A stretch of 38,589 bases of DNA, from the NCBI GenBank assembly GCA_025362495.1, contig JANYGI010000159.1, positions 1 to 38,589 on the forward strand, given 5' to 3'. Of the stretch, positions 13,299 through 16,340 are shown one piece after another. The notes below the pieces were generated by a model that did no database searches, was not told the DNA's origin, and saw nothing but the letters and a program-made list of their open reading frames with translations. Position 1 is the first letter of the stretch; each line of letters begins with the position of its first letter. A program made the translations under genes and the position numbers. Source of the stretch: Byssovorax sp. Its GTDB lineage: Bacteria; Myxococcota_A; Polyangia; Polyangiales; Polyangiaceae.

Positions 13299-13706
13299 AT
13301 GACCGAACGCAAGATCCGGGTCCTCGTCGCCAAGCCCGGTCTCGACGGCCACGATCGCGGCGCGAAGGTCGTCGCTCGGGCCCTGCGCGACGCCGGCTTC
13401 GAGGTCGTCTACACCGGCCTCCACCAGACCCCGGAGATGATCGCCGCGGCCGCCGTGCAAGAAGACGTCGACGCGGTCGGACTCTCGATCATGTCGGGCG
13501 CGCACAACACCCTCTTCCCGGCCGTGATCGACGCGCTCCGCGCCCGCGGCGCCGACGAGATCGTCGTCTTCGGCGGCGGGATCATCCCCGACGAAGACAT
13601 CGAGCGCCTCCGCGCGGCCGGCGTCAAAGGCGTCTTCACGCCGGGCACCCCGCTGAAGACCATCATCGACTGGGTCCACGCGAACATCGTCCCCCAGAAC
13701 GCCTGA
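13299..13706 (+). CDS. methylmalonyl-CoA mutase C-terminal (B12-binding) subunit
   Basis: This 135-residue protein is a stand-alone cobalamin-binding domain of the methylmalonyl-CoA mutase small-subunit type. The DxHxxG motif is D16-G-H18-D-R-G21, where H18 ligates cobalt. The SxL-equivalent (GLSIMSG) and the GGG motif ([12 protein letters not shown]) follow in order. In split mutases this subunit pairs with a separate catalytic subunit that interconverts (R)-methylmalonyl-CoA and succinyl-CoA or isobutyryl/butyryl-CoA; no large subunit is in the window. The ATG at 13299 is chosen over the GTG at 13292, which is in a different frame. The gene stands alone between the GltJ-like gene and the palindromic element. 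Confidence 0.88.
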
Positions 13707-13750
13707 GCCTCGGCGCCCGTCGAACGGCCCACCCTCCAGGGCCTCTTCCA

Positions 13751-13777
13751 GGTGGCTGGTGTCAGACACCAGCCACC
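13751..13777. repeat. 27-bp near-perfect palindrome, REP-like
   Basis: GGTGGCTGGTGTC and GACACCAGCCACC form perfect 13-bp arms around a single A. It lies 44 bp after the mutase-subunit stop and touches the larger inverted-repeat element, so the two may form one composite unit. It could also serve as a terminator for the upstream gene. Confidence 0.8.
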
Positions 13778-13900
13778 GGAGCCGTCGGTGATTTTCGTCG
13801 AGCCGGGCGCGCGGCCAAGGCGGAGGAGGAGCCGTACGCAAGTACGGTGACGACGACAACGCCGGCCCCGCGCCCGGATCGGCGAAAAGCACCAGGCTCC
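13778..13900. repeat. 123-bp inverted-repeat element (MITE- or REP-like)
   Basis: The arms 13787-13816 and 13864-13893 pair at 26 of 30 positions (cores GGTG-N-TTTTCG and CCGGGCGCG). Six more bases, GGAGCC at 13778-13783 and its complement at 13895-13900, extend the arms to the element ends. The centre holds a perfect CCGTAC/GTACGG stem (13832-13847) closed by a GCAA tetraloop, flanked by purine-rich GAGGAGGAG on one side and GACGACGAC on the other. The right end overlaps the first base of the minus-strand stop codon at 13900-13902. The whole unit could fold into one long hairpin in DNA or RNA. Confidence 0.75.
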
Positions 13901-15111
13901 TAGAAGATCATCCCGAGATCGACACCGAGCGTCCACTGCTTGGCGACGCCCTTGAACTCGTTGTCGCCCGTGCCCGCAGCGGCCTTGTCGCCGAGCTTGA
14001 TCCCCGTCACCGGATCGACCTGATGATCCGAGCCTTGATTGGCCGCCTCGGGGCTCGTCAGGTCCGTCACGAAGTGAACGCCGAGCTTCACCACCTGGAC
14101 GCGGAACTGCAGGCCGAAGTCGAGGCGATGGCGGGTGAGGCGAACGGCGTTGAACACGCCGGTGTTGTTGAAGTCGCCGCCGCTGCCCTTGCCGGCGTTG
14201 CTGGAGCACACCGGGGTACCATCGCGGTACGGCGTGGTCGAATCGGGGGTGGCCGGGGTATTGGTCCCCTTGAATCCACAGGCAGCCACAGGATCGGTGT
14301 TGGGCGTGAAGTCGACGAGGCCAGAGTCCCCGAAGATCCGGATCCACTGATAGCCACCATAAGGCGTGATGATCAGCGATCCTGCGATGGGGATGGGCTT
14401 GGAGAGCTGGGCGTCGAAGCCGGCCACGGTGAGCTGCATCTCCGGGGTTCCGGCCACCGTACGGACCGAGCCGCCGACGGAGATATCCGGGAAGATCGCC
14501 GGGATCCCGGTGCGAAAGCCCTCGAGGATCGACATCCGCACGTCGGCGCCGATGGTGAAGATGGTGGTGTTGGACAGCCACCCGAACGCGCCAGTCAGCT
14601 CGAGGCCGAAGGGGAAGCCCTTCCTGATCTTCATCTGGTAGAGCTGAAGGAGGCCGGCGGGCGTGGGGTTGCTGTCGGAGAAGCGTTTGCTCGAGGGGTC
14701 TTGAAGGCCCTGAGTCCCGCGCTTCCAGTAATCGGCCTTGTTGTCGATCGACGTGTAGTCCGCCTCGATGGCGAGCTCGAACCCGCCGAAGCCGGTGGAG
14801 CGCGCCGAGTGCATCGCCGAGGGGGCGACGGCGAAGCCGTACTGGGCGACGAGCTTGGAGAAGTCTCCATCCTTCGCGCGGCAGAAGGCCGGGGCGCCGC
14901 CGGTCGGGTGATACGCCGGGTTGTAGTAGAGTCCCCCGCCCGTCCCGACGGACCGACAGCCTTGATCGACGACGAACCGGCCGAGCGCCGGGTCCATCGT
15001 GTCGGCCGCCGCAGGGCGAGGAGAAACAATCGCCGCCGCGGCCAGGGCCAGCGCGGTAGCGAGACGGGCCGCAGAGCGGAGGGGGCGCTGTTTGTCTTTG
15101 GTTCCAGGCAT
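13900..15111 (-). CDS. outer-membrane beta-barrel protein, unknown function
   Basis: This 403-residue protein has a signal peptide (Arg-rich start, LATALALAAAAIVSPRPAAA, cleavage near residue 37) and a mature part rich in alternating, aromatic-flanked strands (FGGFELAIEADYTSID, FGLELTGAFGWLS, LIITPYGGYQWIRIFG, HRLDFGLQFRVQVVKLGVHFVTDL). The final residue is Phe in a strand (VDLGMIF), the C-terminal signal expected for BAM-inserted barrels. No substrate can be assigned. The start is the ATG at 15111; a longer in-frame opening to 15720 runs antisense through trmL and is rejected. The stop codon abuts the 123-bp palindromic element, and the divergent trmL starts 105 bp away. Confidence 0.8.
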   Translation of the reverse strand: MPGTKDKQRPLRSAARLATALALAAAAIVSPRPAAADTMDPALGRFVVDQGCRSVGTGGGLYYNPAYHPTGGAPAFCRAKDGDFSKLVAQYGFAVAPSAMHSARSTGFGGFELAIEADYTSIDNKADYWKRGTQGLQDPSSKRFSDSNPTPAGLLQLYQMKIRKGFPFGLELTGAFGWLSNTTIFTIGADVRMSILEGFRTGIPAIFPDISVGGSVRTVAGTPEMQLTVAGFDAQLSKPIPIAGSLIITPYGGYQWIRIFGDSGLVDFTPNTDPVAACGFKGTNTPATPDSTTPYRDGTPVCSSNAGKGSGGDFNNTGVFNAVRLTRHRLDFGLQFRVQVVKLGVHFVTDLTSPEAANQGSDHQVDPVTGIKLGDKAAAGTGDNEFKGVAKQWTLGVDLGMIF

Positions 15112-16226: not shown

Positions 16227-16237
16227 CGGCTCCGGCG

Positions 16238-16258
16238 GCGGTGTCCGTTCGACACCGC
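16238..16258 (+). terminator. hairpin after the lipoprotein gene
   Basis: GCGGTGTC and GACACCGC form a perfect 8-bp stem with a 5-nt loop, starting 11 bp after the stop. No U-tract follows. The stem contains the same GGTGTC/GACACC core as the 27-bp palindrome at 13751. Confidence 0.55.
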
Positions 16259-16340
16259 TCGCCGAATCTATCTGGCCCTGTTTACGCTGCGACCAGCGAC
16301 TCAACAGAGCACATCGAGCGTGCGCAGCGCGCCAGGGGTT

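Follow-up and report, generated by a model that had tools for sequence, protein, structure and literature searches.

A dispersed folded repeat, antisense to the gene ends it adjoins, in myxobacteria and Patescibacteria

The window analysed here is a whole 38,589-nt stretch of DNA from Byssovorax sp. (contig JANYGI010000159.1). In it, two genes that the initial annotation had correctly described as convergent flank a repeat locus. The plus-strand gene (13299–13706) encodes a protein of 135 aa that we take to be a B12-binding protein. The minus-strand gene (13900–15111, with an uncertain start at 15111 or 15720), called the barrel gene, encodes a protein that ends in ...DLGMIF and has no Pfam match. 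The main element occupies 123 bases (13778–13900, plus strand). The strand that carries the conserved fold, hereafter the P strand, is the plus strand in the window and is antisense to the barrel gene. The element does end on the barrel gene stop codon, a minus-strand TAG (13900–13902): its last base, 13900, is the first base of that codon in plus-strand reading. A second hairpin lies directly at the left edge of the element (13751–13777); it is the perfect 27-bp palindrome previously claimed, with 13-base halves (13751–13763 and 13765–13777) that match without exception around a single central base. By eye, no such element was seen at the other gene ends of the window.

The arms of the long stem (13787–13816 and 13864–13893, plus strand) pair at 26 of 30 positions (87%), as had been proposed, and the GGAGCC/GGCTCC ends, the sequences GAGGAGGAG and GACGACGAC and the CCGTAC-GCAA-GTACGG stem were all found where the initial annotation placed them. 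Folded as RNA, positions 13740–13910 reached -112.7 kcal/mol (z -10.74), and none of 200 shuffled sequences was equally stable. Inside the long stem, GAGGAG on the 5' side of the core (13826–13831, plus strand; columns conserved in alignment A1) can pair with TGACGA on the 3' side (13848–13853, plus strand) in the order G.A/A.G, G-C, G.A/A.G, G.U, and the isolated G-C and G.U pairs were also found by RNAalifold. The core GAGGAG/YGACGA can thus be read as two tandem G.A/A.G modules split by a G-C pair, for which we infer a sheared G.A geometry. Between the two core strands stands an apical stem with a variable loop (13832–13847, plus strand), and this stem covaries, being CCGTCC/GGACGG or ACGTAG/CTACGT in other copies. 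The core had been described as GNRA-capped; the GCAA loop is indeed present here, but other copies carry GCAC, GAAT, GAAC, GACC, TCCT or others, so that the GNRA cap is incidental and no family trait.

Copies of the element are dispersed. In the window's own genome (G000; 10.8 Mb in 240 contigs), blast found 20 near-full-length copies, that of the window included, with 84–100% identity where aligned (two aligned only partly), plus shorter matches. A covariance model (R1) built from 27 sequences of three genomes recovered the same 20 at E values below 1e-20, among 52 matches listed at E <= 1 that include weak matches and matches of the palindrome on the mirror strand. Across the order, 43 of 183 genomes, the own genome included, matched at E <= 0.01; at most 18 candidates were scored per genome, and copy numbers are therefore lower bounds. 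The possibility that the element exists only at this locus, which would have spoken against the initial proposal, can be set aside, since copies are dispersed in the genome, in the order and beyond. Thirteen copies of the own genome abut a gene 3' end, and ten of these genes were characterized by Pfam: a methyltransferase, a phosphate transporter, a chloride transporter, TamB, OmpA, a response regulator, an Arf-like protein and three without a match.

The second hairpin is less regular. Clean second hairpins adjoin 5 of the 20 own-genome copies (manual reading of eight that passed a filter), and similar sequences also occur without the main element. One of these solitary sequences, which begins CGGCTCCGG, lies in the window directly 3' of a TGA stop codon (16227–16264, plus strand). 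Three further solitary copies were inspected: two adjoin a stop codon (L358 and L359, near 1501–1527) and one lies 18 nt away (L360). The solitary hairpins at 16227–16264, L358 and L359 are possibly remnants of lost copies, or else belong to another family of hairpins that is sited in the same way. The 27-bp palindrome alone gave no match in a scan of a genomic contig collection from which records of the own or very near genomes may be absent.

The initial annotation suggested that folding was maintained, and base pairing has indeed been kept. Across 27 copies drawn from three genera, paired cells made up 97.8%, against 89.4% after shuffling. Both sides had changed in 15 of 27 pairs, compared with 4.7 in shuffled data, and in 43 cells, compared with 7.9 +- 2.0. 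When the partner was slid by one to three columns as a control, at most 7 pairs and 12 cells did so. Differences between copies are thus compensatory, contrary to what would have counted against maintained folding; the cells used here and in the strand test below share ancestry, and strand-biased mutation lies outside the model. Changes were also followed in place. At one orthologous tRNA-Arg site in three species the arms changed together, with two double changes against four broken or gapped pairs in one comparison and four against four in the other, some of the broken pairs stemming from the placement of alignment gaps. At two greA sites of related Parcubacteria the arms have diverged and can still fold.

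Which strand folds was examined from the single mismatches inside stems, counted after folding copies with G.U forbidden, so that G.T and A.C were treated alike. On the P strand, the G.T:A.C ratio was 21:5 in the own genome (20 copies), 105:42 in the rest of the order (99 copies), 32:4 in Patescibacteria (50 copies) and 22:1 in Tahibacter (10 copies); the corresponding G.A:C.T ratios were 30:2, 145:9, 35:1 and 9:2. Folding of the opposite strand gave nearly the mirror image of these counts. The conserved fold is thus that of the strand antisense to the abutting gene, and selection seems to act on this P strand.

Most copies examined in myxobacteria and in Patescibacteria lie at a gene 3' end in a single orientation. 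For the order, 119 copies from 26 genomes were used, namely the 20 own copies and 99 taken from the best-scoring listed matches; excluded were L076, L077 and L079, which are incomplete copies of the own genome, L138 and L146, which are truncated by contig ends, a weak match in L130, and mirror-strand matches. Genes were called with our own codon-usage script rather than a published gene finder, tRNAs were called with ARAGORN, and the right edge is defined in P orientation, that is, on the plus strand in the window. The right edge was within 8 nt of a gene 3' end, either a stop codon or a tRNA end, in 95 of 119 copies (a gene was called there in 116), and the left edge in 3 of 119 (gene called in 107); tRNA 3' ends account for 5 of the 95. 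The exceptions among own-genome copies, of which 13 of 20 abut, include one at the 5' end of a tRNA-Tyr (L060), one abutting from the other side (L069) and two near start codons (L067, L074). At eight loci and at L091, elements form tail-to-tail pairs, mostly one per convergent gene.

In Patescibacteria, 50 copies from four genomes were sampled (20 of 22, 10 of 31, 10 of 27 and 10 of 45 matches). To the right of the element midpoint, a gene 3' end was found at a distance of 45–75 nt in 35 of 50 copies, versus 3 of 50 to the left; when no more than 15 nt from the edge of the folded hairpin was allowed, a stricter criterion, the counts were 27 and 3 of 50. A start codon occupied the right-hand place in 7 of 50 copies. 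Tahibacter copies showed no side preference (2/10 versus 2/10). The products of the 14 abutting Patescibacteria genes that were read presumably include GreA (two), ribosomal protein S7, a peroxiredoxin and a malic enzyme.

The abutting stop codon is most often TAG, found in 58 of 99 abutting genes compared with 56 of 236 others (odds ratio 4.5, p 1.7e-9); TGA is the commoner abutting stop in genomes G001 (7/11) and G135 (4/5). Among 55 copies abutting TAG, the head tetranucleotide was CTAG in 30, GTAG in 18, TTAG in 5 and ATAG in 2. The register of the stop codon against the element varies (TAG|GAGCC, TGA|GCC, TAG|CC), so no frame is kept, and a coding or readthrough element was rejected by eye on this ground. 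The rplS gene was compared across species. According to the model, the element adjoins its stop codon in G009 and G135, weakly in G138 (E 1.9e-5) and at a second rplS of G137 (E 0.0012). The protein end and the TGA stop are unchanged with the element (G009, G135, G138) and in most genomes without it; other stops are TAG in G113 and G116 and TAA in G115, and for G107 and G108 it is doubtful where the protein ends. G137 is a genome bin that holds two different rplS genes (L180, L202), one followed by a weak, G009-like match to the element, and may be contaminated.

The family is present in more than one phylum. A scan of the genomic contig collection with a core pattern returned 60 stretches which, by record titles, comprise 32 from myxobacteria, 17 from Patescibacteria, 5 from Tahibacter soli, 1 from a 'Deltaproteobacteria' and 5 others. 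The folds of 29 of them, mostly non-myxobacterial, were inspected; in these a comparable long stem encloses the core, and three are cut by contig ends. Identity of the core across phyla is no evidence, because the search pattern imposed it; the position of the stop codon and the strand bias are independent of the pattern. A second covariance model (R2) was run on 14 genomes carrying 16 core-pattern loci, one locus excepted. At E <= 0.01, where mirror-strand or weak matches may be included, it gave 7–45 matches in each of eleven Patescibacteria genomes of 0.4–1.0 Mb, 19 in G190, 12 in Tahibacter and 1 in the deltaproteobacterium; matches in all 14 were expected, since R2 was built from copies of those genomes. 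With up to 31–45 matches each in Patescibacteria genomes of 0.7–1.0 Mb, the element may make up a sizeable share of what very small cells have in non-coding DNA. In Zambryskibacteria PPGI01 (L209, L243, L250, L254) several contigs terminate in the core; the assembly seems to be broken by the repeat there, which suggests very recent duplicates. The core pattern had no match in viral contigs, and a viral origin was rejected for that reason. Rfam 15 gave no match in the window and only a tRNA in 15 loci, the best weak matches being far below the gathering threshold. As no description of the repeat was found in the open-licence papers searched, this folded family is apparently undescribed.

The initial annotation had proposed a non-autonomous mobile element mobilized by a Y1/RAYT-type transposase. 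The first part of this proposal agrees with the similar copies dispersed at unrelated genes: they are non-coding and have terminal inverted repeats, as in a MITE. Mean identity between copies was 0.76–0.87 within a genome and 0.69–0.71 between the genomes compared. Comparison of 94 abutting proteins gave ten blastp rows, of which five pairs, in two genera, were taken as orthologous; about 0.2 shared genes would be expected by chance (estimated by hand), and the five seen suggest preferred sites. In the four comparable pairs, copies at orthologous sites were 0.64, 0.75, 0.72 and 0.67 identical, compared with random cross-genome means of 0.69–0.71. Being no more alike than random copies, they led us to reject ancient fixed copies at orthologous genes; their likeness is as would be given by independent insertions. 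One comparison with a close genome offered no syntenic site at which an empty site could be read, and no target-site duplication was noticed by eye in the flanks.

The transposase part of the proposal was not supported. Y1_Tnp (PF01797) had no match in G000 or in the copy-rich G009, G024, G001, G122, G149, G185, G187 and G191, and a Y1/RAYT transposase was rejected; PF01797 is present in 11 of 30 genomes of the order (G000 being among the 30) and in 7 of 14 others, some of them copy-bearing. Reverse transcriptase (RVT_1, PF00078) occurs in 10 of 15 genomes, including all six copy-rich genomes of the order tested. It was not found in the copy-rich G185, G187 and G191, the eight reverse transcriptase loci fetched had, like the Y1 loci fetched, no significant match to the element, and reverse transcriptase was rejected as the mover. 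G000 encodes an integron integrase (G000:C55:307-1248; L386, L398), which scores 437 bits under TIGR02249 (cut-off 265) and 338 under the stricter NF011946 (cut-off 435). None of the other 14 genomes searched has one above the cut-off, G024 giving a partial sub-cut-off match of 166 bits, and neither a convincing copy of the element nor a cassette array was seen on the 33 kb contig of the G000 integrase. An integron was rejected on these grounds and for lack of R boxes.

Among known systems, the element works most like an attC site or a REP hairpin, yet it lacks defining features of both. An attC site sits behind a gene in one orientation, with the stop codon in its terminal repeat, and has R boxes of consensus RYYYAAC ... 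GTTRRRY. The ERIC sequence is an imperfect palindrome. PMC4792948 describes attC sites as palindromic, with structure conserved over sequence, and as used in the form of a folded single strand, preferably the bottom one. The element resembles them in that its conserved fold is on the bottom (antisense) strand in all four groups; it differs in that none of 179 copies ends in AAC/GTT R boxes, and in that its copies are scattered singly, in many cases beside ordinary genes, instead of forming cassette arrays. With REPs and REPINs as described in PMC2817692, it has in common dispersed extragenic palindromes, an NTAG head and a lineage-specific sequence, and REPs beside rayt genes can adjoin the rayt stop codon directly. 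It is, however, much longer, has a conserved G.A core, is found in many copy-rich genomes that lack a RAYT, and is biased to the 3' ends of many different genes. The CGTC-tagged REPs treated in PMC3733652 are likewise palindromic repeats in several phyla, seemingly without a dedicated transposase, but measure 20–40 bp. ERIC and bacterial MITEs are similar in size (127-bp units) and in intergenic location (PMC2759123); the element differs from them in its fixed orientation to gene ends and in that no terminal duplication was noticed by eye.

We consider the element to be a non-autonomous mobile DNA hairpin that moves as folded antisense-strand DNA, tentatively and with a probability of slightly less than one half (about 0.48). 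According to this proposal, the antisense strand would be exposed during replication or repair and would fold around the G.A-rich core; a recombinase encoded by the host or by the element would recognize the folded strand as single-stranded DNA and join the right end of the element to the 3' boundary of a gene. The stop codon, most often TAG, would be either a part of the terminal repeat or the target, and for this reason insertion would leave the gene product intact. Movement as folded single-stranded DNA by a recombinase is what we infer, and the compensatory changes made in place at the tRNA-Arg site suit a local function equally well. Such changes would fit a structured RNA transcribed from the P strand, for example a small RNA or a ribozyme by which gene 3' ends are masked or processed, its copies having spread through gene conversion or retro-mobility. 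RNA commonly contains G.U wobbles and tandem G.A motifs like those of the P strand, in 7 of 50 Patescibacteria copies a start codon follows closely in P sense, and RVT_1 is found in all six copy-rich genomes of the order tested. We regard this RNA as rather unlikely: where the second hairpin adjoins the left edge, as in 5 of 20 own copies, a P-strand promoter has little space, RVT_1 was not found in three copy-rich genomes, and folded DNA likewise tolerates G.T and G.A. That the element is instead a 3'-UTR structure or terminator, acting in stability or termination of the mRNA of the abutting gene, would account for its place directly 3' of stop codons and tRNA 3' ends, and in Parcubacteria greA it is preceded by the stop codon and followed by a terminator-like hairpin. 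A role in the mRNA is distinctly unlikely, since the odd pairs G.T and G.A belong to the antisense strand: in all four groups the mRNA strand would have A.C and C.T, the reverse of a selected mRNA fold. The other gene ends of the window also do without such an element.

The place 3' of a gene in fixed orientation, the stop codon in the terminal repeat, the folded antisense strand and the integrase of G000 are all consistent with an attC-like single-strand site for an integron-type or Xer-type tyrosine recombinase, whose carrier genes could become cassettes. This we find very unlikely, given that the R-box pair is at the ends of 0 of 119 and 0 of 60 copies and that 14 of 15 copy-bearing genomes have no integrase above the cut-off. 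A REPIN or REP element moved by a RAYT (Y1) transposase is highly improbable: heads such as (G/C)TAGGAGC resemble the GTAG-tagged REPs listed in PMC2817692, but only 18 of 55 TAG heads are GTAG, PF01797 was not found in G000 (of which a few percent is missing) or in the other copy-rich genomes, and the element, which has a conserved core inside, is at least some 120 nt long, compared with 20–40 bp in PMC3733652. A further reading, which we judge unlikely, would make the family a cross-phylum class of single-strand recombination sites that install themselves exactly behind genes, with the anatomy of attC and a different enzyme. If so, ordinary genes would have a natural route by which to gain sites and become mobile cassettes. 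If the attC-like explanation is true, the origin of gene cassettes, which to our knowledge has no settled account, becomes testable. Fixed orientation at gene ends, the antisense-strand fold and the spread across phyla go beyond the initial annotation, and the first two point to a mechanism of targeting, for which a cultured host would allow a test.

Some copies and relatives depart from the common form. G000 contains two further, more diverged subfamilies of similar architecture (L361, L362 and L365; L363, L366 and L367), the latter of which resembles the Patescibacteria type (AGGCGCG ... GAGCAACGC). At L039 (G009:C98:50-180), near a contig end, the palindrome extends about 40 bp past the element, possibly a fold-back assembly artefact. 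In two G000 copies (L021 and L022, contigs C218 and C201) the same arm is interrupted by an insert of the GGGCTCGC..GCGAGCCC type, which may be a smaller repeat nested in the element.
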